From assembly GCA_023249635.1 (NCBI GenBank), contig JAHFCH010000009.1, positions 13,717 through 69,350 of the forward strand: a stretch of DNA of 55,634 nucleotides, in the 5' to 3' direction. The translations under genes and the position numbers were made by a program. How positions within the stretch are numbered: position 1 is the first letter of the stretch; each line of letters opens with the position of its first letter. Under the pieces are notes generated by a model that was not told where the DNA came from, did no database searches, and saw only the letters and a program-made list of their open reading frames with translations. Below are positions 9,173 to 24,719 of the stretch, piece by piece. This DNA is from Fibrobacterota bacterium (GTDB lineage Bacteria; Fibrobacterota; Fibrobacteria; UBA11236).

Positions 9173-9271
9173 AGGAGTCCCCAAAAAGTAGCTCTGGGGG
9201 AGGGGTTTTCCAACGCGGGGCACGGGGACACCGGTCAGGTTGGGGAAAAGAGATGCTCAGCCCTGGGCCGA

Positions 9272-9312
9272 AGCGCCAATGAAGCTTCGAAAAATGAAGC
9301 TTCATTGGCGCT
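9272..9312. repeat. Perfect 17-bp inverted repeat in the fabV-dnaN spacer
   Basis: Arms 9272-9288 and 9296-9312 are exact reverse complements around GAAAAAT. Neither side is followed by a T-run, so it is not a normal intrinsic terminator. The rest of the 286-base spacer shows no ORF worth calling. The element could be an operator, a cruciform or a member of a dispersed palindrome family. Confidence 0.8.
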
Positions 9313-9458
9313 CCACGGGGCCTGGGGCGGGGCGCGCAGGCCGGCAGGGCAGCGGAAGCGCGGGTGCGCTAGTGCCGCGCCAAAGACTATCTTTCACCCG
9401 TCCGCCTTTATTCCATCAGGGTGGCCGCGGGCGCGGAATGCGCCTTGGAAGGGTCGCA

Positions 9459-10577
9459 ATGAAGTTCGAAGCCAACAAACCGGTATTCCTCGATGCCCTG
9501 CAGATGGCCGGCAATGCGTCGCCTACCAAGACCACCTTGCAGATCCTGTACAATCTGCTGCTGAAGTTGGAAGGCAATACCCTGGAGATCCGCGCGACGG
9601 ATCTGGACATGACCATCGTGCTGCGCTTGCAGGTCGAAGGCCATGAGGACGGCGAGATCGTGATCAATTCCAAGAAGCTCTTGGAAGTGGTCAAGGAACT
9701 CCCCGATTTCCCCGTGATCGTTTCGGTGGATGAATACATCGTGACCATCAAGTCCGAGTCGGGCTTCCAGTGCAACTTGACCGGCTTCGACGCCAGCGAA
9801 TACCCGGCCTTGCCGGACCTGGGCACCGCCAAATCCTTTGCGGTGCCGCTCAAGGACCTGCGCTTCCTTTCCGAGAAGACCACCTTCGCCGTGTCGGCCG
9901 ACTACAGCCGCATGAGCCTGACGGGCGCCTTCTGCGAATTCAAATTGGATACCCTGCAAATGGTGGCCACGGACGGCCATCGCCTGGGCAAAGCCTTCAC
10001 GGCCGCGCCCGGCCTGCATGTACAGCCAGGCGTGATATTGCCGCCCAAGGCCCTGGGCCAGGTGCTGCGCATGTCCGAGGACGCGGAGCAATCCATCCAG
10101 GTCGAAATCGGCCCGGCCAACGCGCGCTTCTCCACCGACACCATCGTGATCTTTACCAAGCTCATCGAAGGCCCATACCCGAATTACGAGAACGTGATTC
10201 CCAAGGACTTCACCAAGAAGATGAAGGCCAACCGCGAGCATCTCGGTTCGGTCATCCGCCGCGTGGCCACCATGGCCAACGCCAAGACCAAGCTGGTGGT
10301 ATTCGGGTTCCAGGATCGCCAACTCGCGCTCTCGGCCAAGAACCAGGACCTGGGCGGCGACTCGGAAGAATCCCTACCGGTGGAGTATACTGGCGACCAG
10401 GTGGAAGTGGGCATCAACGCCAACTACGTGCTGGAAGTGTTCCGGCTTATCCACACCGAAGAAGTGCAGTTCAAGTTCAACAATCCGCTCGGCGCCATTA
10501 TCGTGGAGCCGGTGATGGAAAAGCCGAACTACTTCTTTATCGTTATGCCGCTGCGTATCCTGAAAGACGGGCAGTAG
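9459..10577 (+). CDS. dnaN: DNA polymerase III sliding clamp (beta subunit)
   Basis: The 372-residue product has the three-domain beta-clamp layout: 'MKFEANKPVFLDALQMAGNA' at the start, 'NTLEIRATDLDMTIVLRL' in domain 1, 'LQMVATDGHRLGKAF' in domain 2, 'EGPYPNYENVIPK' before domain 3, and the terminal 'IVMPLRIL'. It tethers the replicative polymerase to DNA. ATG 9459 has GGAAGGG at 9447-9453. dnaA is not next door and recF lies 14 kb downstream rather than adjacent. Confidence 0.97.
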   Translation: MKFEANKPVFLDALQMAGNASPTKTTLQILYNLLLKLEGNTLEIRATDLDMTIVLRLQVEGHEDGEIVINSKKLLEVVKELPDFPVIVSVDEYIVTIKSESGFQCNLTGFDASEYPALPDLGTAKSFAVPLKDLRFLSEKTTFAVSADYSRMSLTGAFCEFKLDTLQMVATDGHRLGKAFTAAPGLHVQPGVILPPKALGQVLRMSEDAEQSIQVEIGPANARFSTDTIVIFTKLIEGPYPNYENVIPKDFTKKMKANREHLGSVIRRVATMANAKTKLVVFGFQDRQLALSAKNQDLGGDSEESLPVEYTGDQVEVGINANYVLEVFRLIHTEEVQFKFNNPLGAIIVEPVMEKPNYFFIVMPLRILKDGQ

Positions 10578-10593
10578 CCGAACAACGTGGGCC

Positions 10594-10643
10594 GGCCCGT
10601 CCACGGGCAATAAACCCACGCCATTGACCGGGCCCGTCCACGG
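10594..10643. repeat. Pair of 13-bp direct repeats, each partly palindromic
   Basis: GGCCCGTCCACGG occurs at 10594-10606 and 10631-10643, 37 bases apart, shortly after the dnaN stop. Each copy contains the self-complementary CCGTCCACGG core. The pair may form the dnaN 3' structure or be a binding site; no T-run follows. Confidence 0.5.
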
Positions 10644-10716
10644 CCCCACCCCGTTTCGCCATACCGCGGTAGCCGCGGCGGATTGTCCGCGCTGGGCGCG
10701 AACGGGCGCCGCCCGG

Positions 10717-10746
10717 TTGCATCGTCCCTCCCCGCGACCCTATAAT
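10717..10746 (+). promoter_or_regulatory. Sigma-70-like promoter placing the start point at or beside the GTG
   Basis: TTGCAT (10717-10722), an 18-base spacer and a consensus TATAAT (10741-10746) lie immediately before GTG 10753. Transcription would begin about seven bases after the -10 box, that is at the start codon, implying a leaderless mRNA. Confidence 0.6.
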
Positions 10747-10752
10747 CCCTGG

Positions 10753-12150
10753 GTGAACCCCTGCATTCGGAAGGCGGCCTTGGCCGCCCTGTTTTTCTGC
10801 GTTTGTAGCGCGACTGCGGGGCGGCCTACCTTGCCGGATTTGCCGCTGGGAACGGGGTCGGCCTCGTTCGCGGGAGGCGGCGCGGGGCATTCCTCCGGCA
10901 TCGGATCCATCTTCGACAACCCCGCGGCCTTGAGCGTGCGGGACGACTTCCAGGTGGAGGCGGGGTTGATGGGCATGGCGGCCGGCCTTTCGCCGTATTT
11001 CCTATACGGATCCCATGGCGTGGGCGAAGGCTCCTATGCCCTCGGGTATTATTACGATGCGCGCCCGGGCGATCCCGAAGCGCCGGCCGCCGCGCGCCAA
11101 GGCATGATCGTGGGCGCCTCGTGGGAGGCGCTGCCTTGGGTGGTGGCGGGCGGATCGGTGCGCAGCACCGGCACCGGCATGGGGGTCGGGCAGGACGGGT
11201 TCGGCGTGGATGAGGATATCGGCGCGCTGATGCGCGCATGGGACGCATGCTGGTTGGGGCTGGCCATGCACAATCTGATGGAATCGGGAGTGGGACAAGA
11301 GCCGGACGGGTTCCGCAGCCATCGTACTTACGCGGTGGCGCTGGGTACGGGACTTTCGGGCCTGCGGCTGCTGGGCCTTTCCTTCCACGAGCCCGATGCC
11401 TATTACGAGTTGCGCGCCAACGGCCTGCCGCCTTACGGCCGTGTGTCCCACGCGTTTTCAATGGCGTCCGCGTTCATGCCCGCGGGCCGGCTGGGATTCC
11501 GTGGGACCTTTTTATTGCCGCATGGCGGCGTTCCCAGCTTCGCGGTGGGCACCTTCCTCAATCTTCCGCTCGGGCGCGGCGCGCTGGTGACCGCCTATAC
11601 CTTCCATGCCGGCGGCTTTGAAGAGACGGGCGAGACCCAGGCTTCGCATTCCATTTCCATGAACTTCCGCTTGGGTGGCCGCTTGGATCCGCTTCCGCCC
11701 ACGGTCGAGATCGTGGCGGACAAGGTGCTGCTGGCTCCCGAGGATTCCGTAGCGCAGGTGCATTTCCACTTGAGCGCGCGCGACATGACCTATGTGCCAG
11801 GTCGCGGCGAAGGGGATATCGAAGAGGGCGTGCATACGGGAATCTGGGCGGGCCGTAAAGCCTCCCTGGACGCAGGCCGCAGCCTGGTCGAAGGCCGCAT
11901 CCGCGATTGGAGCCTCATGATCCATAGCATCGGCACGGGAGGTTTGGCGGGACCGGAAGTGAAAGCCTATCGCGGCCGCGATTTGCCCCCGCGCGTGATC
12001 CGTTGGGATGCGGTGGATGCGGGCGGCAAAAGACTGCCGCCGGGATTCTACGCCTTCCGTCTCGAGGCCGTGGACTTGGCCGGCAACTCCGCCGCCACCG
12101 GATGGCAGTTATTGCAGATAGGCCCGCCGGCCTCACTCACCGGCGGCTGA
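10753..12150 (+). CDS. PorV/UPF0164-like outer-membrane beta-barrel protein with C-terminal Ig-like domain
   Basis: The 465-residue protein starts at GTG 10753, giving a signal peptide ('AALAALFFCVCSATA'). The mature N-terminus 'SASFAGGGAGHSSGIGSIFD' followed by 'NPAALS' is characteristic of FadL/PorV/UPF0164-type barrels, and many alternating amphipathic strands follow to about residue 320. The last 120 residues resemble a FlgD-type Ig-like domain ('IRWDAVDAGGKRLPPGFYAF', 'VDLAGN'). It would sit in the outer membrane; PorV relatives shuttle type IX secretion cargo, but that role is inference here. It is preceded by a near-consensus promoter and no ribosome-binding site. Confidence 0.7.
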   Translation: MNPCIRKAALAALFFCVCSATAGRPTLPDLPLGTGSASFAGGGAGHSSGIGSIFDNPAALSVRDDFQVEAGLMGMAAGLSPYFLYGSHGVGEGSYALGYYYDARPGDPEAPAAARQGMIVGASWEALPWVVAGGSVRSTGTGMGVGQDGFGVDEDIGALMRAWDACWLGLAMHNLMESGVGQEPDGFRSHRTYAVALGTGLSGLRLLGLSFHEPDAYYELRANGLPPYGRVSHAFSMASAFMPAGRLGFRGTFLLPHGGVPSFAVGTFLNLPLGRGALVTAYTFHAGGFEETGETQASHSISMNFRLGGRLDPLPPTVEIVADKVLLAPEDSVAQVHFHLSARDMTYVPGRGEGDIEEGVHTGIWAGRKASLDAGRSLVEGRIRDWSLMIHSIGTGGLAGPEVKAYRGRDLPPRVIRWDAVDAGGKRLPPGFYAFRLEAVDLAGNSAATGWQLLQIGPPASLTGG

Positions 12151-12303
12151 TTACGGTTCCTTTTATATACTAAAGCATACTACGAGTGGGAAGTGATACC
12201 GAATCTCCCGTTGTCGCCGGGATCCCCGATGCCCAAATGCCCGGAGAAATCAAAGGGTTGGCGGTAGATTCTCAACAGGCGCCAGGCAAACAGGGCGCCG
12301 GTC

Positions 12304-12335
12304 GCGGCCGCGATTATTTCCGGCCGCTATTTTTT
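12304..12335 (+). terminator. Hairpin plus U-run just before the small CTD gene (possible attenuator)
   Basis: A 7-bp GC stem (12304-12310 with 12321-12327) is followed by TTTTTT at 12330-12335, with the GGAGG ribosome-binding site of the next gene directly after. The 196-base leader after 12150 also contains a GGCGCC...GGCGCC stem. I could not match it to a known riboswitch class. It may be an attenuator or a terminator for the preceding gene. Confidence 0.55.
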
Positions 12336-12346
12336 CGGAGGGTCCC

Positions 12347-12715
12347 ATGTCATTCGCCAAACTCGCTTCCTTCCTAGTCCTCGGAACCCTCGCTCTGGCG
12401 CATGTCGCCCCTGCCGCCGAACACGGCGCCTACTTCGCTCCGACTTTGCGCAGCGACAGCCAGGGTAGCTTGGAAGTGACCTTCGGGATCGAAGAGGCCG
12501 CGCGGGTTTCCCTGGTGGCCTTCGACGCCCAAGGCAAAGTGGTCGCCACCCTCATCGATGGCAACCAGGTCTCGGGCTTCCACCACCTTTCCTTGTTCTC
12601 CAATCGCCTGCAGGGCCAGGACCGCCGGGTGATCTACGAGCTGCGCGCCGGCGATGCCGTGCTCGCCCAGGTGCGCGCCATTTCTCCCGACGCGCCTGCC
12701 TTGGCCTCGCGCTAA
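12347..12715 (+). CDS. Secreted stand-alone C-terminal (sorting-like) domain protein
   Basis: The 122-residue product has a signal peptide ('FLVLGTLALAHVAPA') and then almost nothing but the roughly 80-residue domain found at the C-termini of the proteins at 14784, 15768 and 19510. The shared pattern is 'VSLVAFDAQGKVVATL', 'GFHHLSLFSNRLQG', then a strand ending near the C-terminus. No other domain is present. The fold resembles type IX sorting or FlgD Ig-like domains. GGAGG precedes the ATG by a few bases. A free-standing copy suggests a structural, chaperone or decoy role, which is speculative. Confidence 0.75.
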   Translation: MSFAKLASFLVLGTLALAHVAPAAEHGAYFAPTLRSDSQGSLEVTFGIEEAARVSLVAFDAQGKVVATLIDGNQVSGFHHLSLFSNRLQGQDRRVIYELRAGDAVLAQVRAISPDAPALASR

Positions 12716-12883
12716 TACCTGAATTTGCGTTTCTTTGGGGGCCGCCTTGGCCCCAACCGCAGGCATTACGTCACGTCCTTCCCATGCCCTGCCCTGGGCC
12801 GTGCCTTATACTCCCCCTATAGGGTTCCTGGTGGTGCCTTGATCCGTGGGTTCGCGGGTACGGTTGGAAAAAAAGGGGAGAAC

Positions 12884-14053
12884 ATGATCGCAGGGAAACG
12901 TGCGTGTTACCTGGGCGCCTGCCTGGCCGGGCTATGGGGCGCGGCCGCCTCCGCCGAAGCCCCGGTATTCCGCTTCGAGGACAATAAAGGCAATCTCGAT
13001 CTGCTGTACGGCGATGTTCCCGTGTATAAGCTGATGACCTTCTACGACGGCAACGACACCACCAAGAAGGTGTTCCACCACGTGTACGGATTCCATGGCG
13101 AAGGCTTCATCACCAAAGGGGCCGGACGCCTCTGGGGCCACCATCGCGGCATTTGGCTAGGCTGGTCCACCGTGACCGGCAACGGCAAGACCGACGACAA
13201 TTTCTGGGAATGCCCGGACGGCAACCACCAGACGCATAACAAGTACCTGCCGGAACGGGAAGCCGCCAATGCCGTCTTCGCCCGCCGCGCTTCCATCACC
13301 GATTGGATCGACGCCGACGGCACCGTGGTGGGCCAGGACAACCGCGAGGTGACCGCCTGGTTCCCGGCCGACGGCGTGCTCGCCCTCGACTTTTTCGCGC
13401 AAGCCATTTCGCCCAAGGGCCCCATGACGGTGCAAGCCACGCCCGCGCACGGAGGCTTGCAATTCCGCAGCGATTCCCAGGACGATACCGCCACCGCCAT
13501 CATGCCCAAGGACGCGGTGCTGCAGCCCGCCGACGTGATCGGCGTCAAGGACAGCAACTCATGGGTGTACGAGTCCTTCACGGTCAAAACCTACAAGTAC
13601 GGCGTGCTGGCCATGGACCATCCCGCCAGCCCGCGCCCCAGCAAACAGAACTTCCGCGGCTACGGGCGCATCGGCGCGTACTATGGCGATAAAGGCACGA
13701 CCATCATGCCCGACGCTCCCATGAAGATGTACGAACGCTTTCTGGTTTTCGATCTGGCCAAGTTCCCGAAACTGGATCAGGCCGCGTTGCAGGCCTATTA
13801 CGATGCCTATAAGAAGGTGGCGCCGGACGCGAGCCTGCCGAAGAATGTCGTGGCGTTGCTACCCTACCGGGGCGCGGCCCGCGGGGCGCTGCGGGTCGGT
13901 TCCGGCACTCTGGTTGGACCTGGGGCCGGAGGTAGCTGGGGTGTTACCCTGCCTACCGGGGACGGGAATTGGATCGGGATTGATGGGCGGCGTATGGGCG
14001 CGCCCGGGGCGGTTTCCCCCGCCGCGATCGATATGGGGTCCGTGGGGCCCTGA
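12884..14053 (+). CDS. Secreted DUF6807 (PF14100, 'PmoA-like') protein
   Basis: The 389-residue protein starts at ATG 12884 after GGGGAG and has a signal peptide ending near 'AAASAEAP'. The DUF6807 signature is clear: 'GHHRGIWLGWSTV' followed by 'DNFWEC', then 'WIDADGTVVGQDNREVTAW' and 'GGLQFRSD'. Despite the Pfam nickname the family is unrelated in function to particulate methane monooxygenase and is often found among sugar-metabolism and secreted proteins; its reaction is not established. The last 60 residues are Gly-rich and unlike the family core. It stands alone on the plus strand, convergent with the TlpA-like gene. Confidence 0.8.
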   Translation: MIAGKRACYLGACLAGLWGAAASAEAPVFRFEDNKGNLDLLYGDVPVYKLMTFYDGNDTTKKVFHHVYGFHGEGFITKGAGRLWGHHRGIWLGWSTVTGNGKTDDNFWECPDGNHQTHNKYLPEREAANAVFARRASITDWIDADGTVVGQDNREVTAWFPADGVLALDFFAQAISPKGPMTVQATPAHGGLQFRSDSQDDTATAIMPKDAVLQPADVIGVKDSNSWVYESFTVKTYKYGVLAMDHPASPRPSKQNFRGYGRIGAYYGDKGTTIMPDAPMKMYERFLVFDLAKFPKLDQAALQAYYDAYKKVAPDASLPKNVVALLPYRGAARGALRVGSGTLVGPGAGGSWGVTLPTGDGNWIGIDGRRMGAPGAVSPAAIDMGSVGP

Positions 14054-14090
14054 CGGGAAATGCGGAAACGCGCGCGCTACCTGGCGGCGG

Positions 14091-14624
14091 CTACTTCGTG
14101 AACTGGCCCTCGACGAGGGCTTCCATTTCCTTCTCTTGCGCCGCGGTATATTGCGGCATGGCCTTGAGCAGTTTGCCATCGCGGCCGAAGATGAACAGCG
14201 AGGGCAGGCCTTCGAAGCCGAACACCTTTGACTGGGTATCCTCCGCGTCCCACAACACCTGATAAGTCATCTTCATCTTCTTGACGAACTTGGCGACCTT
14301 TTCCTTGGGCCCTTTGTCCGTGGTAACGCCGGTGACCACGAGGCCCTTGGCTCCGTACTTTTCCTGCAGGCGCTTGAGCACGGGAATGGTCTCGCGGCAG
14401 CCCGTGCACCAGGTGGCCCAAAAGTCGACCACCACCACCTTGCCCTGCCACTCTTTGGAATCATGCGCCTTGCCGTCCAGATCGGGCAGGGCCAGGGCAG
14501 GCAGGGTTGCCGGCGCGGCGGAGGCCGGGGCGGCGGAAGCGGAGGCATGCAGCGGGGCGGAAAGGGCCCCGGTGAGGAGCAGGGAGAGGGCCAAGAAAAC
14601 GGGTTTCGTGCGCATACTGGACAT
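14091..14624 (-). CDS. TlpA/ResA-like periplasmic thioredoxin
   Basis: The 177-residue protein has a signal peptide ('LALSLLLTGALSAPLHA'), an Ala-rich linker and a thioredoxin fold with the active site WCTGC inside 'VDFWATWCTGCRET' (about residues 66-79) and the cis-Pro segment 'GLPSLFIF'. It would act as an extracytoplasmic thiol-disulfide oxidoreductase, the kind used in cytochrome c maturation or copper-site assembly. Neighbouring genes encode c-type lipoproteins and Cys-containing secreted proteins. Start at 14624; a second Met three codons later is equally possible. No clear ribosome-binding site. Confidence 0.9.
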   Translation of the reverse strand: MSSMRTKPVFLALSLLLTGALSAPLHASASAAPASAAPATLPALALPDLDGKAHDSKEWQGKVVVVDFWATWCTGCRETIPVLKRLQEKYGAKGLVVTGVTTDKGPKEKVAKFVKKMKMTYQVLWDAEDTQSKVFGFEGLPSLFIFGRDGKLLKAMPQYTAAQEKEMEALVEGQFTK

Positions 14625-14783
14625 AATACGTAAAGAGGGGTCAGTGCGGTAGGTGGGTTGGACACTGTATGGTAACCCTGATGCTTGGCCGAAAATAGTT
14701 CCGATCGGCCTGTAACATTTTTACGTATTTGGAGACGGAACGGGCTGGTTGGGGCGAATACACTCGCAACGGAGACAGGAAAT

Positions 14784-15494
14784 ATGAAATCGAAATTACT
14801 CGGAAAAATAGGACTGGGATGCATGATGGCCGTTGGGATGGCAAGCGCCCACTTGTCCATGAAGGCTCTGAAGCCCGCTGCTACGGACCAGCTTAAGATC
14901 ACGGAAACCTTCACCATCACCTGGACCGTGGTATTCGCGCACGGGAAGGGTACGGATATCGCGGTATCGCGAGACGACGGTACCACGTGGACGGATATCA
15001 AGAACGGGTTCACCGAAGCATCGGGAGAGAATACCTTCAAGTGGACGGTAACCGGGCCTACCAGCTCCAAGGCGAAGATCCGCATTTGCGAACAGGGCGA
15101 CAGCCCGAAACCCTGTACTGATGCCAATAAAACGACGGATTCGACGAGTGGAACCGGTGGCCATTATGTATTGGTCTCGCCGGCCTTCGTGATCGCCGAA
15201 GCGGGCTCGGCAGTTCTGGGTACGGCCGGGCAGGCGCCGTTCTCCATCGGCTTCAACCCCGAGTCCCGTAACGTGGACGTTTCCTTCTCCCTCTCGCAGG
15301 CCGAGGCCGTGTCCCTGGAGGCCTTCGACATGCAGGGCCACCTGATCGCCAACCTGGCCCAGGGCCGTTACGAAGCCGGCGCACACCGGTTGTCCGTGTT
15401 CTCGAATCGCCTCTCGGGCGCGTCGCAGGCCATGGTCTTCCGTCTCAAGCTGGGCGCGCAGGTGCATACCCAGGCCTGGGCCGGAGCCCAGTAG
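14784..15494 (+). CDS. Secreted Ig-like protein with mature N-terminal His and C-terminal sorting-like domain (paralog 1)
   Basis: The 236-residue precursor has a signal peptide predicted to cleave at ASA before 'HLSMKALKPA', leaving histidine as residue 1. A beta-sandwich domain follows ('DQLKITETFTITW', 'VSRDDGTTWTDI', 'TFKWTV', then a Cys pair in 'IRICEQGDSPKPC'), resembling the Ser/Thr-rich Kre9/Knh1-type module. His31 and Asp36 of the mature protein align without gaps with both paralogs. The last 80 residues are the shared C-terminal domain ('VSLEAFDMQGHLIANL', 'HRLSVFSNRLSG'). The ATG has GGAGACAGG upstream. It is divergent from the TlpA-like gene and followed by hairpins at 15498-15514 and 15548-15572. 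Confidence 0.8.
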   Translation: MKSKLLGKIGLGCMMAVGMASAHLSMKALKPAATDQLKITETFTITWTVVFAHGKGTDIAVSRDDGTTWTDIKNGFTEASGENTFKWTVTGPTSSKAKIRICEQGDSPKPCTDANKTTDSTSGTGGHYVLVSPAFVIAEAGSAVLGTAGQAPFSIGFNPESRNVDVSFSLSQAEAVSLEAFDMQGHLIANLAQGRYEAGAHRLSVFSNRLSGASQAMVFRLKLGAQVHTQAWAGAQ

Positions 15495-15547
15495 TCCCCT
15501 TCCGCATCGGAAGGACCTTTCCGCAACGCCGGAATTCCCATCCGCAG

Positions 15548-15572
15548 GCCCCGGAACCAATGGTTCCGGGGC
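15548..15572 (+). terminator. Strong hairpin after paralog 1
   Basis: A perfect 10-bp stem, extendable to 12 bp (15548-15559 with 15561-15572), lies 53 bases after the stop, preceded by a weaker 6-bp hairpin at 15498-15514. No T-run follows, so termination is probable but not certain. The remaining spacer to 15768 carries a TATATT box near 15694. Confidence 0.5.
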
Positions 15573-15767
15573 TCCCGCGACACTTGGGACTTGCCCATTA
15601 CCTGACCCATCCCTCTGCTGTTTTCCGCTGCGAAGCGCGTTCTCATTCGTGAACGCCTTTAGGGGCGGGGTCCGCAGGCATAATCGGCAATGCCTCGGTA
15701 TATTCAATGCGGTGGGGATGGGTAGACCGCGCGTCAACCTTGTCCACTGATCCCAATAGGAGTTCGT

Positions 15768-16457
15768 ATGATCAATCGGAATATTTTCGCAGCCTGCGTT
15801 TTCGCGGCTACGTCCCTCGCCAGCGCCCATCTTACTGACGGTTCTCTGGTCCCCAGCGGCGGGCAAACGCTTAAGACCGGAGCAAGCCTCACCATCACCT
15901 GGAAGGAAGATGAGATCCACCATAGCCGCATCGACATCTCCCTTTCCAAGGACAACGGCGCCACCTGGACGGATATCCGCACCAAGGGCCCGGACGAAAG
16001 CGCCGATGGCTCTTTCAAATGGACTATTCCGACCGATGCCGTGAGCGCCCAGGCCAAAATCCGCGTCTGCCAAAGCGGGCCGTGCTCGGCCACCCAGAAC
16101 GTGACCAAAGCCAGCGGCAACAGCTCGCCCTGGTACCTGGTCAGCAACACTTTCGCCATCCAGGCCTCCACCGCGATCGCGGCCCCGGGAGCATCCAACG
16201 AGGGATTGACGGTGGATTATCGCCCGGACCTGCGTAACGTAGAGGTTACGTTTGCGATGGCGCATGAGGGCGCCGTGAACCTTGCTGCTTTCGATATGCA
16301 GGGACGCGTGGTGGCGCAATTGATCCAGGATCGCTTCGCGGCAGGCGAACATCGCCTATCCGTGTTCGCGAACCGTCTCGATGGCGCGCAAGGCCTGGTC
16401 TTCAAGCTGCAAGCCGGTGACCGGTCGGTCTCCCACGCCTGGATGTCGGTGCGTTAA
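15768..16457 (+). CDS. Secreted Ig-like protein with mature N-terminal His and C-terminal sorting-like domain (paralog 2)
   Basis: The 229-residue precursor follows the same plan as the gene at 14784: a signal peptide ending ASA, the mature start 'HLTDGSLVPSGG', His31 (with His32) and Asp36, 'LSKDNGATWTDI', 'SFKWTIP', a Cys pair in 'RVCQSGPCS', and the C-terminal domain 'VNLAAFDMQGRVVAQL' with 'HRLSVFANRLDG'. ATG 15768 has AGGAG in AATAGGAGTTCGT. The TATATT at about 15694 is a candidate -10 box. It is convergent with the DUF3570 operon across a terminator. Confidence 0.8.
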   Translation: MINRNIFAACVFAATSLASAHLTDGSLVPSGGQTLKTGASLTITWKEDEIHHSRIDISLSKDNGATWTDIRTKGPDESADGSFKWTIPTDAVSAQAKIRVCQSGPCSATQNVTKASGNSSPWYLVSNTFAIQASTAIAAPGASNEGLTVDYRPDLRNVEVTFAMAHEGAVNLAAFDMQGRVVAQLIQDRFAAGEHRLSVFANRLDGAQGLVFKLQAGDRSVSHAWMSVR

Positions 16458-16468
16458 ATTGAGTGCGC

Positions 16469-16495
16469 GGCGGGCCGCCCGGCCCGCCCAGGTTT
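16469..16495. terminator. Terminator between paralog 2 and the DUF3570 operon
   Basis: An 8-bp GC stem (16469-16476 with 16481-16488, loop GCCC) is followed on the plus strand by CAGGTTTTT. It lies in the 93-base gap between convergent stops. Confidence 0.75.
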
Positions 16496-16550
16496 TTCGG
16501 CCCCTCCCGCATTGTTGGGTTGGCCTTGCCCCTGCCGAGGCTATCGGCCC

Positions 16551-17756
16551 CTACAAATCGAAGGACAAGCCCGCCAGCACCGTGCCTTGCTGGTAGTATT
16601 CGTCCACGGGGAAGAGCTGGTAATGCTTGGCGGGATGCACGCCGTCGTCCTCGCCGTGGGTATCGCGCACCGCGTGGTCATAGGACAGGTCCCAGCGATC
16701 CGGCAGCCAGGGGGAATCGCCCCAGCTTTCCGGGAAGGTCGAGCCGACCTTGAGCCCCACCGTCAAGGACGAGAAAGCGAAGAAGCGGATATCGGCAGTG
16801 CGATTGACCTCGTCGCCGTCGTACGTGTCCTTGGCAAAGGCCGCCGCCGATTGCGAATAGCCGCGCGCCCGCACGCGCACGAAGGTCCCGTCCCACAGAT
16901 ACTGGTACCATTGCGCATCCAGGGTACCGGATTGCAATTCCCAATCATCCCGATAGTACCGGCCTTCGATATGCAAGGAGCCCAGGCGCTCCGCGAGGTG
17001 GAATCCGCGGATCAACTGGCCCGACAAGGCCAAGGCGGTTTTACGATCGGGCAGGTTCTCGGTGATGAGATTGCCTTGGGTGGTGAAAGGCGGAGTATAG
17101 GGATGCCCCAGGAAACCGGCGCTGTGAATGACGTTGGCGGTGAGTCCACTCAAGGTCAAGGGCGAGAGCACCTGGGCCAAGGTGGCGGAGAGGGAAAGGA
17201 TTTGCCGAGTTCCGCCGAGCTGGTTGAAAGGAACGGCGGGATGCATATCGTCGAAGAAGGCCGCGGCGGAGAGCCCCACCGTGGTATTGCGCTCGTTGAA
17301 ATCCATGGAGCCGCCCAGGGACGGCGAATAGGAGCGGTAATCCTTCTCATCGCTGAAATAGAAGGCGCCCGAGGCGGTGCGACCTTCCCGGGCATAGGCG
17401 AGCGAGGCCTGCTCGGAGTGGCGCAGTTCGCGGCGCGAGGCGCCGGTAACGCCGTCCAGGTTGAGATCATTATCATTGAGGCGGCCGATATTGCGCAGCC
17501 CCAGGCGGCGCGAGGCGCCGGAAACATAGTCGAGTTCCTGATCGTATTGGAATTTCCAGGCATCCGCCAACTTATGCATCCAGGCGAAGGCGGGGGTATG
17601 GTTCCAGACCCCGTTCTTGTCCCAGAAATACATGTACTTGAATTCAACGCCATCGTCGGCTTCGGCGGCGCGGGGCGTCGAGGGTAACACCGCAGTTACG
17701 ACCAGGGCGGTCGCCAGGGCCGCCTTCATGGCGCTGGACCGGGGGGAATTCAGCAT
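16551..17756 (-). CDS. DUF3570 outer-membrane-type protein
   Basis: The 401-residue protein has a signal peptide ('MKAALATALVVTAVLPSTPR') and the DUF3570 layout: 'FKYMYFWDKNGVWNHTPAFA', repeated SGAS(R)R motifs ('SGASRRLGL', 'TGASRRELR'), alternating barrel strands, and the C-terminal 'DEYYQQGTVLAGLSFDL'. It is predicted to be an outer-membrane beta barrel. Its start overlaps the DUF4266 stop by seven bases (ATG 17729 is an alternative start). In many bacteria DUF3570 and DUF4266 genes are adjacent, often with apbE and a thioredoxin-like gene; here apbE is absent and c-type lipoprotein genes are in its place. Confidence 0.9.
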   Translation of the reverse strand: MLNSPRSSAMKAALATALVVTAVLPSTPRAAEADDGVEFKYMYFWDKNGVWNHTPAFAWMHKLADAWKFQYDQELDYVSGASRRLGLRNIGRLNDNDLNLDGVTGASRRELRHSEQASLAYAREGRTASGAFYFSDEKDYRSYSPSLGGSMDFNERNTTVGLSAAAFFDDMHPAVPFNQLGGTRQILSLSATLAQVLSPLTLSGLTANVIHSAGFLGHPYTPPFTTQGNLITENLPDRKTALALSGQLIRGFHLAERLGSLHIEGRYYRDDWELQSGTLDAQWYQYLWDGTFVRVRARGYSQSAAAFAKDTYDGDEVNRTADIRFFAFSSLTVGLKVGSTFPESWGDSPWLPDRWDLSYDHAVRDTHGEDDGVHPAKHYQLFPVDEYYQQGTVLAGLSFDL

Positions 17757-17983
17757 CCGCAGCCGCCGCCCGATCCGGAGCTGCCGCCGGCGGAACCTTC
17801 GCGGCGGGGCAGGTTATGGCTTTCCATGCCCGCGCCTTGCGGGTCCGGGGTGCGTTGCATAATGGGGTCACTGAGGAATTCGCGATCCTTCTGGTGCACC
17901 CGGGCGCAGCCGGTGAGCACGGTAAGGAGGGTAAGGACCGCGAGGACGGCGGCGATTCGCGGCGGAACGGCAATACGGTTCAT
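17750..17983 (-). CDS. DUF4266 small lipoprotein with Gly/Cys-rich tail
   Basis: This 77-residue lipoprotein starts at ATG 17983, which overlaps the upstream stop as ATGA. The lipobox is 'LTGC' near residue 26. The body has the DUF4266 motif 'DREFLSDPIMQRTPDP' and 'SHNLPRREGSAGGSSGSG', ending in 'GGGCGC'. The terminal Cys pair could bind metal or form a thioether or disulfide; the family function is unknown. It is the third gene of the four-gene overlapping unit. Confidence 0.9.
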   Translation of the reverse strand: MNRIAVPPRIAAVLAVLTLLTVLTGCARVHQKDREFLSDPIMQRTPDPQGAGMESHNLPRREGSAGGSSGSGGGCGC

Positions 17984-18675
17984 GGTGACCCTTCGACGTC
18001 TTTCAATTCCGGCAGGCCTTTGGAAGGCGCGGCCCAACGGTAGATTTTCGGTCCCGGATGACAGGCCAAGGCGGAGCAGGTTTCCTGGGTGGGGTTGTAG
18101 TAAGCGGTGTCCCCGTCGAATTTTTCGGGAGCGGAATTGCGCGCATCGAATGCGACATCCACCTTGCCGTTGAGATGGGCCAGGCCGGTGACGTATTCCT
18201 GGAAAGCCGGCGCGGGACCCGGTCTGCGGGGCATGTCCACGGGATGGTTCTGCAGCAGGCTATCGACGCGGTTCAGAAACAGGCCGCGGATGCGCCTTCC
18301 GTCCGAAGTCGTGTCGTTGGCGCCGGGATTGCTGACGGTATGCCACTTTTCCGTGGTCGCAGTATCCTCGAATACGCTGTCGAGTATTACCGCGGAAACC
18401 GAGTGTAAGGATTTACTGTGGCAGTCCAGACAGGTGATGCGGCCATTGAGCCGATCGTTCCGGGGCGCGTTGTTCAGATGGTAATCGTGGTTGCGGTCGG
18501 CGAGCGGATAGGCATGGCATCCCGAACACGTCATCCCTTGGGCCGGTGTGCCCGTGCGCGCCGTGAGGGCTTCGGAATCCACCTTCCACTCGCCGCAGGC
18601 CGTCAGGGCCAGTAATGATCCTGTGAGGAGTAGGCGCGCAAGCATAGAAGGGAAATCTAGCAAAGCGCCGGTCAT
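17980..18675 (-). CDS. Triheme-type c cytochrome lipoprotein (paralog B)
   Basis: The 231-residue product has a lipobox ('LTAC', Cys27) and three candidate heme-attachment motifs: CSGCH at residues 50-54, CLDCH at 82-86 and the unusual CX4CH 'CSALACH' at 200-206, a spacing known from Geobacter-type CxxxxCH domains. 'GLAHLNGKVDVAFD' is shared with its neighbour. The predicted location is a lipid-anchored extracytoplasmic electron carrier. Start 18675 overlaps the upstream stop as ATGA; Met11 (18645) aligns better with the paralog's signal peptide and is an alternative. Confidence 0.82.
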   Translation of the reverse strand: MTGALLDFPSMLARLLLTGSLLALTACGEWKVDSEALTARTGTPAQGMTCSGCHAYPLADRNHDYHLNNAPRNDRLNGRITCLDCHSKSLHSVSAVILDSVFEDTATTEKWHTVSNPGANDTTSDGRRIRGLFLNRVDSLLQNHPVDMPRRPGPAPAFQEYVTGLAHLNGKVDVAFDARNSAPEKFDGDTAYYNPTQETCSALACHPGPKIYRWAAPSKGLPELKDVEGSP

Positions 18676-19334
18676 TCTTTCGATCCCGGCAGGCCCTTCG
18701 CCTTGGACACGAACCGGTAGGGAACTGCGTCCTGGTGGCAGGCCACGGCGGAACAGGTTTCCTCGCGGGGGTTGAACTCCGCATGGGCGCCTTGGAAACG
18801 GGCGGTGTCGGTTACGTTGGGATCGAAGACCACGTCGACGGAATCGTTCAGATGCGCGAGGCCGGTCATGTACTCTATCAGACCGCCGGGCGCTGTCGCC
18901 CGCCCCGGTTGGGGCAACGGGTGGCGTTGGCGTCGGACGATGACGGAGTCGAGATGCCAGCCGCGGATGAGGAGCGGTGGGGGATTGCCCGCGCCGGTTA
19001 CGGGGAAATCGACGGTGGAATAATTGCCGGGAAACCGCGAGGCCGGATCGGGATCATGATAGAAAGTATCGTTGAGGACCTCCTCGCGCCAAGCCAGGGA
19101 TTGGTTATGGCAATCGAGGCAGGTGATGGCGCCGTTGATCCGTTTATCCTCGATGCCGCGGTTGAGATGGTAGAGGTGGTTGGAATCCAGGGGCGGATAC
19201 GCATGGCAGGCCGTGCAGCCCATGCCGGTGGCGGGCGCTGCGCTCCGGGCCGTTAAGGCGGCCGAATCCATTTTCCAGTCCCCGCAGGCTACCCAGAACA
19301 GGCATCCTGCCGCGAGCCAGATCCGCTTTCCCAT
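18672..19334 (-). CDS. Triheme-type c cytochrome lipoprotein (paralog A)
   Basis: The 220-residue first gene of the operon carries a short signal peptide with lipobox ('WVAC', Cys17) and the motifs CTACH (40-44), CLDCH (72-76) and CX4CH 'CSAVACH' (194-200). It is clearly a tandem duplicate of the following gene ('HAYPPLDSNHLYHLN', 'YMTGLAHLNDSVDVVFD'). Extra conserved His residues ('NHLYHLN') could be distal heme ligands. It is divergent from the third His1-type paralog at 19510 across a 175-base spacer, which would suit shared regulation. Confidence 0.82.
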   Translation of the reverse strand: MGKRIWLAAGCLFWVACGDWKMDSAALTARSAAPATGMGCTACHAYPPLDSNHLYHLNRGIEDKRINGAITCLDCHNQSLAWREEVLNDTFYHDPDPASRFPGNYSTVDFPVTGAGNPPPLLIRGWHLDSVIVRRQRHPLPQPGRATAPGGLIEYMTGLAHLNDSVDVVFDPNVTDTARFQGAHAEFNPREETCSAVACHQDAVPYRFVSKAKGLPGSKE

Positions 19335-19509
19335 GCCGGAAAAGTTATCTACGCCGGGGCTTTCCCGCAGGCGGGAATTTCCGTTTCCTTTTCAGAAACG
19401 CTTTTGCGTAAACAGGGAGGCTTCCGCCTTCCCGCGAGCTTATATTCCGGGGTAGCGCGGGGGTTCTGGTGGGTCCGCTCCGCGTTCCACAGACATCCGG
19501 AGGATTCCC

Positions 19510-20190
19510 ATGCCATTGCAACTCCAGGGCTCGACCCTTGCCATCCTTCCCCTGCTCATGACCGCCACGCTGGCTTCCGCCCATCTCAAGCAAGGCACCC
19601 TCTTTCCCAAGGGCGGTGAGACCGTGATCGTGGGTGAAAAGGTGACCATCGCCTGGGTGCAGACCCTGGGCCACGACGGCAAATACGATCTATACCTGTC
19701 CAAGAACGGGGGCTCGTCGTGGAGCGAGTTCGGCACGCGCTGGCAAGGGCCCACCGCCGACGGCGATTCGGTGAAATACACCTGGACCGTGCCCAACTCC
19801 CCTGGTGCCACCAACCAATTGCGGATCTGCCAGCTGTTCGCGGGAGAATGCACCGATGCCGACCATATCCTCAAGAGCGCCAACTTCACCATTGCCCCGG
19901 CGGGATCGGGAGTCGTGCCATCCGCGGGCGTGACCGCGCCTTCCCTGGATTTCGATGCGGCCTCGCGCAGCCTGGGCGCCGCGTTCCTGCTCGCGACCCC
20001 GGGACGGGTAACCCTACAAGCGTTCGATCCCGAGGGTCGTCTCTTGGCGACCCTGTTCGATGCGGATAAGTCGGCCGGAAGCTACCGGCTTTCGCTTTTC
20101 GCGAACCGTTTGCAAGCGATGTCGGGTCAGGTGATTTTCCGCCTCGCCTTCGGAGCGGGCGCGTTGACCAAGGCGGTGGCGCTCCCTTAA
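19510..20190 (+). CDS. Secreted Ig-like protein with mature N-terminal His and C-terminal sorting-like domain (paralog 3)
   Basis: The 226-residue precursor starts at ATG 19510 behind GGAGGATTCCC. Its signal peptide ends ASA before 'HLKQGTLFPKGG'. Mature His1, Trp25, His31 and Asp36 align gaplessly with the genes at 14784 and 15768, and the Cys pair lies in 'RICQLFAGEC'. The C-terminal domain is 'VTLQAFDPEGRLLATL' with 'YRLSLFANRLQ'. A TATATT box at about 19440 is a plausible -10. It is separated from the other two copies by the cytochrome/DUF operon and is convergent with the DUF2341 lipoprotein gene. Confidence 0.8.
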   Translation: MPLQLQGSTLAILPLLMTATLASAHLKQGTLFPKGGETVIVGEKVTIAWVQTLGHDGKYDLYLSKNGGSSWSEFGTRWQGPTADGDSVKYTWTVPNSPGATNQLRICQLFAGECTDADHILKSANFTIAPAGSGVVPSAGVTAPSLDFDAASRSLGAAFLLATPGRVTLQAFDPEGRLLATLFDADKSAGSYRLSLFANRLQAMSGQVIFRLAFGAGALTKAVALP

Positions 20191-20209
20191 GGGCCCGGCG
20201 CCCGGTCTA

Positions 20210-22084
20210 CTAGGGCTTCTGGGTATCGTAAGCGGCCGAAATCCATTCGGCCGGCTTCGCTTCCCCCAGGTACTCCACCTCGTCCACATCGCCCTTCCAG
20301 CTGATGTTGGGATCCTGATCCGAGCCGATATGGATATCCGCCTCGAAGCGGTTGACTTCCTTGGGGATGGTCCCGGAGTTTGTTTGGTTGGGCACTTCGC
20401 GCCCGTCCAGGTACAGATGGATGGTCCCGTGATCGAAAGTGGCCGCGTACTGGTGCCATTGATCGCGGTTGAGCACGGGCACGGTACCGTTGACGTTACC
20501 CTGGATCTGCCCCATGGGATCCCCGAATTCCAGTTCGAGCTGGCCGTTCTCGAGAACGCTGAAATGCCATTCCCGCGCGTTGGGCTCCCACTTGGAGATC
20601 AGCACCTGCTCGCGCATGGGATTGGGGTTCTTCAGGCGGGCCCACATGGAAACGGTAAAGGTCTTGGCCACATCGAGGCTGGGCTGCTGGCGCACGTTCA
20701 CATAACCGTTGCTGGTATCCAAGGCGTAGCAGCCGCCCATCACACCGGTACCCGAACGCACCGCCGACTGCTCCACGTTGCCGATGGATTGCAGGAACCC
20801 GGCGAAAACGCCGCGGGCATCCAGGGCCTTGGCCCCGCTCCCGCGCTCATTAAGGTGCCAGACGCCGATGAAGCCGTTGTCGGAGCGGAACACGCCCGAG
20901 CCCTGGGATAGGGGCAGCGGCACGGCGCGGCCCCAATGCAAAACCAAGGTGCGATCGACCTTGCGGGCGGCCAGGGAATCCAGGCGCACCCATACCAGGG
21001 CTTGGCCGGCCTGGGAATCCCAACGCTCGATCTCGATCGGCAACAGACGACCGTGCCCGTCCGATACGGCCAGGTCGCTGCCGTCGCTGGCGGCCTTGGA
21101 GAAGTCGAAGCGCGGGGCCGAAAGCCGCAGGGGCATGGGGAAACCCGCCAGGGCCTTAGGCAGATCGGGCGCGTCGGCGACGAAGGCGCCTTCCAGGGCC
21201 GAGGAGTAGGGCCATTGCGCCAGGTAGTCCTGGGGCAGGGCCTCTTGCGGGCGATTGCCGTCGTTGAGGATGAAATAGCGCACGCTGTCGAAGGCCTTGC
21301 TGCCGTACCAGGCGGGCTGGGCGTTCTCGGGATAGGCCACCGGCAATCCCGTGAAGCTCTTTTCCACTTCCGAAGGGTAATAGCTATAGGGGAGGCGCCC
21401 GTCGTCGGCGGTTTCGCCCAGGGCGATGTCGCGTATATAGGCCGTGTCATTACCGCCAGCCGCGCCGGCATTGGAGGGCCGCACGTCCAGGGCCACGTAT
21501 TGCACCGCATGCCGGGAGAAGACCACGGCCTCGTAGCTGCCCAAGGGCGCGGCCGAGAAGCGGTAGATGCTGTCCGGTCCCGGGCGGGCGCAGGTGGCCA
21601 CGCCGGGGATGCATACCATGGCGTTGCGCACGTCCTGCTCGGGCGCGGGCAGGATACGTCCCACCAGGGTTACGGTAACCCGCGCGGTAAGGTCGGGCAG
21701 GTCCAGATCGCCGAGCGGCTTGTGGATGCGGGTCTGGATGGCGGAGAGGCGGCCGTCGCCTTTGCCCGGGGCATAGATGGCGTAGCGGCCATCGGGCAGG
21801 GAGTCGAAACGGTAGCGGCCGGAATCGTCCGTCGCGACCACGTGTTCGGTGAGCGATACGGGACCGTCTCCGGTGAGTTTCACCTCGGCCAGGATCACGT
21901 CGGCGCCCGGAATGGGCCGGCCGGCGTCGGTGAGCACGCGGCCGGTGAGCGATCCGGTGTTGCCGGTCTCGATGCCGCCTCCGGCCACCTTCTCCACGTC
22001 CCAGAAGCAGGCCGCGCATGCGAAGGCAGCTACGGCGGCCGCGAGGCGGATCCACGGGGCGCGGCTGGAGGGAGCGTGATTCAT
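20210..22084 (-). CDS. DUF2341/LamG lipoprotein with carboxypeptidase-regulatory-like domain
   Basis: The 624-residue lipoprotein (lipobox 'CAAC', Cys26) begins its mature part with a 'GGGIETGNTG' segment, a style common in Fibrobacter lipoproteins. A carboxypeptidase-regulatory-like Ig domain follows at about 38-110 ('SLTGRVLTDAGRPIPGADV', 'DDSGRYRFDSLPDGRYAIY'), then a DUF2341 domain at about 300-400 ('LAVSDGHGRLLPIEIERWDS') and a LamG/concanavalin-type lectin domain to the end ('GVWHLNE', 'WHQYAATFDHGTIHLYLDG'). It probably binds polysaccharide at the cell surface. Start 22084 overlaps the TIGR02147 stop as ATGA. Confidence 0.88.
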   Translation of the reverse strand: MNHAPSSRAPWIRLAAAVAAFACAACFWDVEKVAGGGIETGNTGSLTGRVLTDAGRPIPGADVILAEVKLTGDGPVSLTEHVVATDDSGRYRFDSLPDGRYAIYAPGKGDGRLSAIQTRIHKPLGDLDLPDLTARVTVTLVGRILPAPEQDVRNAMVCIPGVATCARPGPDSIYRFSAAPLGSYEAVVFSRHAVQYVALDVRPSNAGAAGGNDTAYIRDIALGETADDGRLPYSYYPSEVEKSFTGLPVAYPENAQPAWYGSKAFDSVRYFILNDGNRPQEALPQDYLAQWPYSSALEGAFVADAPDLPKALAGFPMPLRLSAPRFDFSKAASDGSDLAVSDGHGRLLPIEIERWDSQAGQALVWVRLDSLAARKVDRTLVLHWGRAVPLPLSQGSGVFRSDNGFIGVWHLNERGSGAKALDARGVFAGFLQSIGNVEQSAVRSGTGVMGGCYALDTSNGYVNVRQQPSLDVAKTFTVSMWARLKNPNPMREQVLISKWEPNAREWHFSVLENGQLELEFGDPMGQIQGNVNGTVPVLNRDQWHQYAATFDHGTIHLYLDGREVPNQTNSGTIPKEVNRFEADIHIGSDQDPNISWKGDVDEVEYLGEAKPAEWISAAYDTQKP

Positions 22085-22923
22085 CGATCGCCGTCCTGGG
22101 GCTTGCTTTCCCATTTGCTCAAGGGAAAGGCCAGGATGTTGAGGTGGAACACGGTGTCGGTGTCGTCATCGGCCTTGGCCAGCTCCAGGATCTCGCGGCG
22201 CACGGCCCGGATCTTCTCTTTGATCCTGGGAAAGTTGCGACGGGAAACGCTGATGGTCAAGGTGGAGATGTCGCGGGCTTCCAAGGGGAAGGCGTCGAAG
22301 GCGCGCTTGGCCAGGTCCAGGGTGGTTTTCTGGAACTGGACGATGGCCATGGATTTGGTTTCTTCGCCGGTCGAGATCAGGGCTTCCACCCGTTCGTACA
22401 CGCCCTTGGGGTTTTTGGCGATGAGGCCCAGGGTCTCGAGCACGGCCACGGCGCGCTCGGCCTCCTTGGCGGTAACGGCGGGCGATACCTGCTGCCCCAG
22501 CTCGCGGAAGTCGCCCTTGAAGGGGTAATAGTCCATCACCTCGCGCAGGGCCACGTAATACCAATGGCTGAACAGCTCGTAGTAGCTGGCGTCCAAGGTC
22601 TTGACCTTGGACTTCTTCACCTTGAGAATGCGATCGAAGAGCAGGTTCTTCTCGTCGTGGGTCTTGGCCTGGTTGAAGAGCACCAGCAACTCGAAATAGT
22701 CGGATTCGCCGCGCTTCATGGCGAACAGTTGGGCCAGCTTGAGCACCACCTTCAGCGAGATGTTGCTTTTGCCGGCCAACACGTTGGAGAAATATCCCGC
22801 GGAACGGATGCCGGTCTTGAGGCAGATGAAGCGATAGGAGAATTTCCCGTCGCGGGACTTCCGTTCCTGGTACAGGTCCTTAAGCAGCTTGCGATAATCG
22901 AAATACTGGTAAACGTCGATCAT
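22081..22923 (-). CDS. TIGR02147 family (DUF4423) regulator
   Basis: The 280-residue protein matches TIGR02147, a family first described in Fibrobacter succinogenes. It opens with 'YQYFDYRKLLKDLYQERK', an HTH-like region 'YRFICLKTGIRSAGYFSNVL', then 'HWYYVALREVMDYYPF' and 'DISTLTISVSR'. Members often precede secreted or lipoprotein genes and are presumed regulators. Met10 of the longer frame (ATG 22923, AAGGAT upstream) is preferred. Coupling to the DUF2341 lipoprotein suggests it controls that gene. Confidence 0.9.
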   Translation of the reverse strand: MIDVYQYFDYRKLLKDLYQERKSRDGKFSYRFICLKTGIRSAGYFSNVLAGKSNISLKVVLKLAQLFAMKRGESDYFELLVLFNQAKTHDEKNLLFDRILKVKKSKVKTLDASYYELFSHWYYVALREVMDYYPFKGDFRELGQQVSPAVTAKEAERAVAVLETLGLIAKNPKGVYERVEALISTGEETKSMAIVQFQKTTLDLAKRAFDAFPLEARDISTLTISVSRRNFPRIKEKIRAVRREILELAKADDDTDTVFHLNILAFPLSKWESKPQDGDR

Positions 22924-23340
22924 GATCCTTGGCCGCCGCTTTGGGGTCATGGCCGGGCCAGGAACCCCTGCCGGATCCGCCCCTGCGATGGAGGGGGACC
23001 GGAAGGCTGACCTAAGATAATTCCCGCGCCGCCGCCCCGCCCCGGGTGTTTCGTGGAAAATGGCGTCTCGGATTGGAGGAATTACCGTCCGCGGGCCTGT
23101 AAGGCCCGTACCTACAGGGTTTTACCGAGCCCAGGTGTTTCCTGGAACGAAACGCATTCACCCGGGAGAACCCCTGCCGGGCCGGGTCCCTTTCGGATTG
23201 GAAGGGTTGGGAGCGTTGACATGTCATTGTACCTACAACCCCCGTAATGACAATGACATTACTCCGTGGGAAAGCCTGTTCCCGGCTGCCCTCCGCCCAG
23301 GCAACGGGAACCGCATAGCCGGACTTGCTACCTTTGCCCC
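22924..23340. other. 417-base intergenic region with inverted repeat
   Basis: No convincing gene is seen. A perfect 10-bp inverted repeat (23221-23230 with 23250-23259, ATGTCATTGT/ACAATGACAT) starts inside a consensus -35 box TTGACA (23216-23221), but no good -10 follows at 17 bases. A CCTGTA...TACAGG hairpin lies in 23098-23123. The region separates divergent promoters for the TIGR02147 and ThuA-like genes. Confidence 0.6.
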
Positions 23341-24030
23341 ATGCCCTCCGGCTCCCCACCCGCTCTCCTGGTTTACAGCGAAACCGCCGGCTATCGGCAC
23401 GGCTCCATCCCCAAGGCTCTCGCGGCCGTCCGCCGCCTGGGGCGCGAAAACGGGTTCGCCGTGGTCGCGACCGAAAATCCGGAGCGCATCCGCCAAAACC
23501 TGCTGGAGGATTTCACCGGCGTCTGCTTCCTCAACACATCGGGCAACGTGCTGGATGCCCGCGGGCGCAAGGCGCTGCGGGGCTTCGTGGAGGCGGGCGG
23601 CGGCTTCGCGGGCGTGCATGCGGCCTGCGATACCGCTTACGATTGGCCCTGGTACGGAAAGCTGGTAGGCGCATGGTTCCTGAGCCATCCCCTGCAGCAG
23701 AACGCCATCGTACGCGTCGACGACCGCGCGCATCCGTCCACGCGCGCCCTGCCCGCGCGCTGGAAGCGCTGGGACGAATGGTACGATTACCGCGTCAACC
23801 CGCGAGCGCGGGTGCGCGTGCTGGCCACCCTGGACGAGCAAACCTATCGCGGCGGGAAGATGGGGGCCGATCATCCCATCGTCTGGTGCCATGAGAACGC
23901 GGGCGGGCGGGCCTGGTATACGGGGTTGGGGCATACCGGCCGCGCTTTCGCGGATCCCGCCTACCTGGGGCACCTCTTGGGGGGATTGCTGTGGACGATG
24001 CGCCTCGAGGGAAAGCGATTCGGAAAATGA
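23341..24030 (+). CDS. ThuA-like domain protein
   Basis: The 229-residue product is a ThuA/glutamine-amidotransferase-like protein: 'LLVYSETAGYRHGSIPKAL' at the N-terminus, 'FTGVCFLNTSGNVLD', 'GGGFAGVHAACDTAYDWPWY', 'HPIVWCHENAGGRAWYTGLG' and the terminal 'HLLGGLLWTM'. Members are linked to sugar or trehalose utilisation, but the reaction is undefined. ATG 23341 has no Shine-Dalgarno; TACCTT at about 23329 could be a -10 box giving a very short leader. Its stop overlaps the next start as ATGA. Confidence 0.9.
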   Translation: MPSGSPPALLVYSETAGYRHGSIPKALAAVRRLGRENGFAVVATENPERIRQNLLEDFTGVCFLNTSGNVLDARGRKALRGFVEAGGGFAGVHAACDTAYDWPWYGKLVGAWFLSHPLQQNAIVRVDDRAHPSTRALPARWKRWDEWYDYRVNPRARVRVLATLDEQTYRGGKMGADHPIVWCHENAGGRAWYTGLGHTGRAFADPAYLGHLLGGLLWTMRLEGKRFGK

Positions 24031-24719
24031 GGCTGGGGATTTTGCGTGCGACGGCCCTGGCCGCGTGCCTGGCCGCGTGCGGTCCCACGGATGCCCCCGT
24101 GAATCATGACTCCAACCAGCCGAGGAAAATCGGGCTTAGGCTCTACCGCGGCAGCTTGTACGGACGTCCCGGAATCTTCTTTTTCGAGGCTTCCGATACC
24201 GCCCTGACTTTGGCCTACGATTCCGCGCTCTGCGGCCTGTTCCAAGCCTGGAAGGGTCCTGTCCTCGGAACGCACATCAATCCCGACGGCACCTACGGCG
24301 ACCAGGGTCCTTCCTACCATCTCCAGATCGAGCATCGCCTGTGGGTGGTACGTAACAGCGAAGATACCCTGGACGCCAAGGTCCGATTCCTGGGGGTGGA
24401 TGAGGACAGCAGCGGATACATCGGCTTCCGCTATGGCCTGGTACTGCCGGCCGGGGACACGATATTCGTGACCGAGGAACCCTCCTGGGACAACCATTAC
24501 GGGGACAATGCATTGCGGCGCGATTTCATCTTCCGGGGCATCCCCTACGGCGCCACGGTGAGCGTACGCCTGGGGGGCATCGCAGGAGGCTGGCCCGAGG
24601 TCTGGGAGCAGAGCGCGGGCGGCTTGTTGCTGGGCCCGGCCGGGCAGGAGCGCCTGGAGATCGGCAACGATGACGTGTCCGCCACCAAGGTCCGCTGGAC
24701 GGGGTCGGGCGCGCATTGA
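24027..24719 (+). CDS. Uncharacterised lipoprotein
   Basis: The 230-residue product is not recognised. It has a clear lipoprotein signal ('ATALAACLAAC') and a beta-rich body ('GLRLYRGSLYGRPGIFFFEA', 'LDAKVRFLGVDEDSSGYIGF'). It is translationally coupled to the ThuA-like gene at one end (ATGA) and to recF at the other (TGATG), so the three form one transcription unit. Confidence 0.78.
   Translation: MRLGILRATALAACLAACGPTDAPVNHDSNQPRKIGLRLYRGSLYGRPGIFFFEASDTALTLAYDSALCGLFQAWKGPVLGTHINPDGTYGDQGPSYHLQIEHRLWVVRNSEDTLDAKVRFLGVDEDSSGYIGFRYGLVLPAGDTIFVTEEPSWDNHYGDNALRRDFIFRGIPYGATVSVRLGGIAGGWPEVWEQSAGGLLLGPAGQERLEIGNDDVSATKVRWTGSGAH

Follow-up and report, generated by a model that had tools for sequence, protein, structure and literature searches.

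Histidine-brace sites are, to our knowledge, known on few scaffolds. Here we describe three paralogous genes (paralogs 1 to 3) in a stretch of 55,634 nt from a Fibrobacterota bacterium (assembly GCA_023249635.1, contig JAHFCH010000009.1; the whole stretch is called the window, and positions refer to it), whose products probably make up a small, rapidly diverging family of exported metal proteins with a histidine brace, with copper as the most probable metal, which would be redox-cycled by the products of neighbouring genes. The nearest described relatives appear to be the AA11 lytic polysaccharide monooxygenases (LPMOs) and the NCBIfam family NF043005 (SCE4755 polysaccharide monooxygenase-like). 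In the AA11 protein AfAA11B the copper brace is formed by His1 and His61, and the second-sphere/axial Glu-x-Tyr pair is E139 and Y141 (PMC12186267); for NF043005 no paper was found in our literature search. Moreover, CopC, X325/Bim1, DUF4198, DUF6702 and Ang-1/Ang-2 have in common with the present family that they are secreted and carry a mature N-terminal His, which in them binds a transition metal, and several of them also have an immunoglobulin (Ig)-like fold. Proteins of the Bim1, CopC and anglerase type are described as lacking polysaccharide activity (PMC7924993, PMC12537917), and among N-terminal-His secreted domains DUF4198 and, secondarily, Ang-1 can bind Ni (PMC12537917). By testable sequence criteria the present family looks like a histidine-brace protein, and it appears to be a new one, built on the Ig fold of KNH type.

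Three paralogs and their family

The three genes are full-length frames on one strand. Paralog 1 (14784..15494, + strand, 236 amino acids) consists of a signal peptide, the candidate histidine-brace KNH Ig domain (~14850-15197) and a C-terminal sorting-like domain, and the same architecture was found in paralog 2 (15768..16457, +, 229 amino acids) and paralog 3 (19510..20190, +, 226 amino acids). As the initial annotation had stated, each of the three Sec-type signal peptides ends in ASA directly before His-Leu (ASA|HL), and Trp25, His31 and Asp36, counted from His1, are in gap-free register across the paralogs, which are strongly diverged (39 and 35% full-length identity to paralog 1). The codons of His1 and His31 lie on the + strand at 14850..14852 and 14940..14942 in paralog 1, at 15828..15830 and 15918..15920 in paralog 2, and at 19582..19584 and 19672..19674 in paralog 3. 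By its Pfam gathering score paralog 2 belongs to the Kre9/KNH family (Kre9_KNH, PF10342; 30.3 bits, E 7.2e-7, cut-off 24.6), while paralog 3 falls just below this cut-off (23.3 bits) and paralog 1 clearly below it (16.3 bits).

Profile searches in 61 related genomes and in a whole-phylum set of 168 genomes gave 15 family members from six genomes (G000-G005) of one little-studied genus. Members were separated by a gap from the ordinary KNH Ig repeats, which are abundant in proteins of the phylum: members had E <= 5e-33 and were matched along almost the entire domain, His1 included, whereas the ordinary repeats had E >= 6.5e-15 and in nearly all cases the match began no earlier than about model position 29. 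A profile scan of genome contigs beyond this phylum gave only ordinary KNH domains among the matches listed, and no relatives were found in the viral contigs and plasmids searched.

In the 15-member alignment, His is strongly conserved at just two columns, His1 and His31 (14/15 each). The signal cleavage context is likewise conserved, i.e. in 14 of the 15 members the sequence has small residues at −3 and −1 and the mature N-terminal His right after the predicted signal peptide. The one exception (G004:C48:33491-33874, L039 13207-14166) has Gln1, also lacks His31, and is otherwise intact; due to its position inside the paralog-3 clade of the tree it is best taken as a natural joint loss, and the loss of both His residues together fits a paired ligand. 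Two of the conditions under which the initial annotation would have been given up, homologs that lose one of the His and a cleavage site elsewhere, were checked in this way and did not speak against it. Compared with the family, only 2 of 109 ordinary KNH domains have His at the His31 column (Fisher p ~1e-15, with kinship ignored). In the loci examined, eight cases of His at +1 were counted with a crude AxA filter for signal peptides, of which seven belonged to this family and one is doubtful; hence His+1 does not seem to be a habit of secreted proteins here.

Further marks of the family are a Cys pair, presumably a disulfide, found in 14/15 members and rare in other KNH domains, and an aromatic residue of the last strand (Y11/W2/H1), a column at which most ordinary KNH domains are unaligned. 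Of the residues that the initial annotation had placed in register, both His hold, whereas Asp36 is only D or N in most members (D9/N5/A1) and Trp25 is not fixed (W8/F3/L2/Y2). Since Trp occurs at the latter column in 103 of 109 ordinary KNH domains, Trp25 is part of the fold core, and both residues were dropped as candidates for the site.

These data bear on two explanations in which no metal is needed. The His pair could be a coincidence or plain inheritance among recent duplicates, in line with the origin of all known members from one genus; members, however, share 30-53% identity with the sequence in the first alignment row and have long branches in the tree, and still His is fixed at exactly two columns and at no others, so that this explanation, already disfavoured, seems to us very improbable. 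Alternatively, the domain could be a surface Ig domain without metal, i.e. an adhesin or a polysaccharide-binding KNH module in which the His residues serve folding or ligand contact. The abundance of KNH-type repeats in the phylum and the match of several members to Kre9_KNH are consistent with this, but His1 comes directly after the signal peptidase site, the two His are retained or lost as a pair, and ordinary KNH domains have neither, which makes such a module unlikely.

Two members deserve separate mention. The Gln1 homolog is a natural negative control for metal binding, and L040:3053-3796 (G001:C161) has neither the C-terminal sorting domain nor the Cys pair and lies away from the redox cluster described below.

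Fold and similarity to AA11 LPMOs

Mature paralog 2 was modelled with AlphaFold2 from an alignment of the paralogs in the window with 30 KNH domains from other genomes (mean predicted local distance difference test score, pLDDT, 84.8; predicted template modelling score 0.79); the single-sequence model reached a pLDDT of 45.7 and was not used. Pfam, hhalign and this model agree on the Ig/KNH fold that had been suspected initially. In the model, strands 20-27 and 34-40 flank His31 on either side, which places it in a BC-type loop. In the Ig topology this loop sits at the end of the fold that also carries the N-terminus. Most likely, after Sec export and release of His1 by signal peptidase, the amino group and ring of His1 would join His31 in a T-shaped site at this end of the KNH-type sandwich.

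A Foldseek comparison of the model with 350,542 PDB chains had 7P3U, from the fungal AA11 LPMOs, as its top match (E 4.8e-4, TMq 0.62); the AA15 LPMO 5MSZ came at rank 19, and the other top matches were mostly antibody-type variable domains. In a search of 177,635 PDB sequences with the family profile, 7P3U was matched with E 2.7e-5 over 62 positions, as a local match only, sialidases matched an Asp-box-like stretch, and CopC structures had only E 0.07-0.11. In hhalign the family matched AA11 with Prob 86 and E 4.9e-6, compared with only Prob 19.8 for ordinary KNH domains as control, and His31 was placed on the His of SATHGGGSCQ in 7P3U, which corresponds to the brace residue His61 of AfAA11B. 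Thus, of the copper (histidine-brace) site proposed by the initial annotation, the His1/His31 determinants stand and His31 is at the AA11-equivalent position; that the bound metal would be copper is suggested by this likeness.

With the AA11 LPMOs 7P3U (AfAA11A), 4MAH (AoAA11) and 9EXJ (AfAA11B), the family shares an Ig-like sandwich, a mature N-terminal His, and a second His in x-x-H-(G/P)-G after the equivalent strand, in the exact hhalign column, and with 7P3U also S-x-D-x-G-x-T-(W/F) after the second His. Unlike them, the family is bacterial, has a sorting-like tail and no evident Glu-x-Tyr, and is below any membership threshold; moreover, the span from His1 to the second His is about 40 residues shorter (31 vs 71 in 7P3U). 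The similarity to AA11 is moderate, and both the His loop and the hairpin after it contribute to it. In this hairpin, the stretch S-x-D-x-G-x-T-W (mature residues 40-47) resembles the Asp box of sialidases and gives misleading sialidase matches in the PDB. A phmmer search with one member was set aside, giving only sialidases and a chance antibody match.

Other families were compared in the same way. NF043005 gave a local match in five of the 15 members (best E 2.7e-4; weak in paralog 3), over the strand-His-strand region with about 34 residues aligned; members reach about 20 bits and the cut-off is 75. With Kre9/KNH the family has in common the fold and the core residues T-I-T-W, S-x-D-x-G-x-T-W and W-T-V-P, but ordinary members of PF10342 lack the His1, His31, Cys pair and last-strand aromatic of the family. 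For CopC, X325/Bim1, DUF4198, DUF6702 and Ang-1/Ang-2 there is no family-level sequence match, the neighbours differ, and there is no transporter fusion; CopC is absent among the Pfam matches shown for members. A signal-strapping paper that searched for N-terminal-His proteins makes no mention of Kre9 or KNH (PMC12537917), and our literature search gave no paper on the present combination. Due to the fact that the family stays below the cut-offs or lacks defining second-sphere residues, we did not file it as AA11, CopC or NF043005. Hence, the initial view that no described family has this combination is right at curated cut-offs, but it did not name the nearest relatives, AA11 LPMOs and NF043005.

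Redox genes and possible function

Gene clusters with DUF3570, DUF4266 and thioredoxin are described, with uncertain function, in the part of PMC8238504 that deals with them, where flavinylation of a DUF3570 protein by ApbE is shown experimentally. In the window, a similar set lies among the paralogs on the opposite strand. It includes a TlpA/ResA-like secreted thioredoxin with WCTGC (14091..14624, −), present beside the family in four other genomes too, a DUF3570 protein (16551..17756, −) with two D-x-x-[ST]-G-A-[ST] flavinylation motifs (DYVSGAS and DGVTGAS), a DUF4266 lipoprotein ending in GGGCGC (CXC; 17750..18037, −), and two triheme c-type lipoproteins, the first (17980..18675, −) with CSGCH, CLDCH and CSALACH and the second (18672..19334, −) with CTACH, CLDCH and CSAVACH. 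The thioredoxin, c-type lipoprotein and DUF4266/DUF3570 genes listed in the initial annotation were thereby recovered, the lipoproteins being triheme (CxxCH, CxxCH, CxxxxCH).

In common with the clusters as treated in that part of PMC8238504, the set has a DUF3570 protein with two [ST]GA[ST] motifs, a CXC DUF4266 protein and a co-encoded thioredoxin, so that, judged from motifs, a DUF3570 flavinylation module is present in the window and in the sister genomes. Unlike those clusters, triheme lipoproteins and candidate histidine-brace proteins are added here, ApbE is not in the cluster, and the thioredoxin is of TlpA type and not PF13899. Both DUF3570 motifs and the CGC end of DUF4266 are kept in every cluster copy checked. 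The redox module (16551-19334 type) is present in all six genomes of the genus, partly duplicated in G002, and family genes are beside it in five of the six.

In our reading, the metal would be redox-cycled by electrons passing through the TlpA-like thioredoxin, the CXC DUF4266 protein, the bis-flavinyl DUF3570 protein and the triheme lipoproteins, and the C-terminal domain would direct the mature protein through the type IX secretion system (T9SS) to the cell surface. The T9SS core gene for SprA (translocon) is present, which makes such export plausible. The output may be O2/peroxide chemistry or copper handling, and we do not choose between the two.

If it is copper handling, the protein would be an exported chaperone, scavenger or sequestering protein like CopC, Bim1/X325 or the anglerases; the brace would be the same as in the reading above, and the redox neighbours would be unrelated or would reduce Cu(II) for uptake. 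The small Ig domain is nearer to CopC and Ang-1 than to LPMOs in size, CopC is a weak profile match, such proteins are the ones described above as without polysaccharide activity, and thiol/flavin reductants could supply Cu(I). On the other hand, the neighbouring genes examined included no copper transporter, CopD or P-type ATPase, the best matches of sequence and fold are LPMOs and not CopC, and surface sorting would put the protein far from an inner-membrane importer. The redox neighbours together with the LPMO-best matches argue against a pure chaperone, and we regard copper handling as a real but less probable possibility. It is rather doubtful, and somewhat more so than copper handling, that the family is a minimal LPMO-like copper oxidoreductase on a KNH Ig scaffold, displayed by the T9SS, with its own outer-membrane thiol-flavin-haem chain and an extracellular polymer as substrate; given the small domain and the absence of the AA11 second sphere, LPMO activity should be assumed only with caution. 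The same scaffold could also carry a brace that holds Ni or Zn instead of copper, for which the Ni-binding DUF4198 and, secondarily, Ang-1 (PMC12537917) would be a precedent; the nearest profile and fold relatives are copper LPMOs and the neighbourhood is redox-active, and we consider this quite improbable.

Several observations weigh against a redox-cycled copper brace related to AA11. Known members are confined to a single genus, and the model superposes on 7P3U with a root-mean-square deviation of 4.4 Å with many antibody V domains close behind. When the Asp box was masked, the 7P3U match in the PDB search was gone and hhalign against AA11 fell to Prob 7.4; the AA11 sequence match thus depends in part on the Asp box, and it was weighted as moderate. 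The Glu-x-Tyr pair was looked for in the last strand of the family and was not found, the conserved aromatic being nearby, and the family domain has only about 110 amino acids, the extended N-terminal region of AA11 being absent. Linkage is not universal either, since in G001 the gene after dnaN encodes the His protein and the redox genes lie on a different contig. Finally, a search of the G000 genome found no ApbE, the enzyme on which flavinylation of DUF3570 depends; it is present in all five sister genomes, which makes an assembly gap in G000 likely, and G000 has four DUF3570 genes, with the motifs of the one in the window intact.

If the exported copper brace is accepted, a very common Ig domain would join the known scaffolds, and the conserved pair of His1 and a loop His would help to recognise further sites of this kind; moreover, a candidate copper centre beside a DUF3570/DUF4266 flavinylation module makes the destination of the electrons a testable question. 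The LPMO-like version, if true, would suggest shared ancestry of AA11 LPMOs and KNH Ig domains.

Other features of the cluster

The genes dnaN and recF are often close together in bacteria. In the window the cluster sits between them (9240-25801), and the redox set adjoins dnaN and/or recF in G000, G003, G004 and G005; neither gene was found within the 14.5 kb read around the set in G002. Upstream of the paralogs there is a conserved cluster gene (10624..12150, +), a frame of 508 amino acids with no Pfam match, and a small secreted protein (12347..12715, +) which consists almost entirely of the C-terminal sorting-like domain and is conserved with the cluster in four of six genomes. With ALA|HV at its signal junction the latter was a candidate for another His+1 protein, but it was rejected, as its orthologs do not keep the His.

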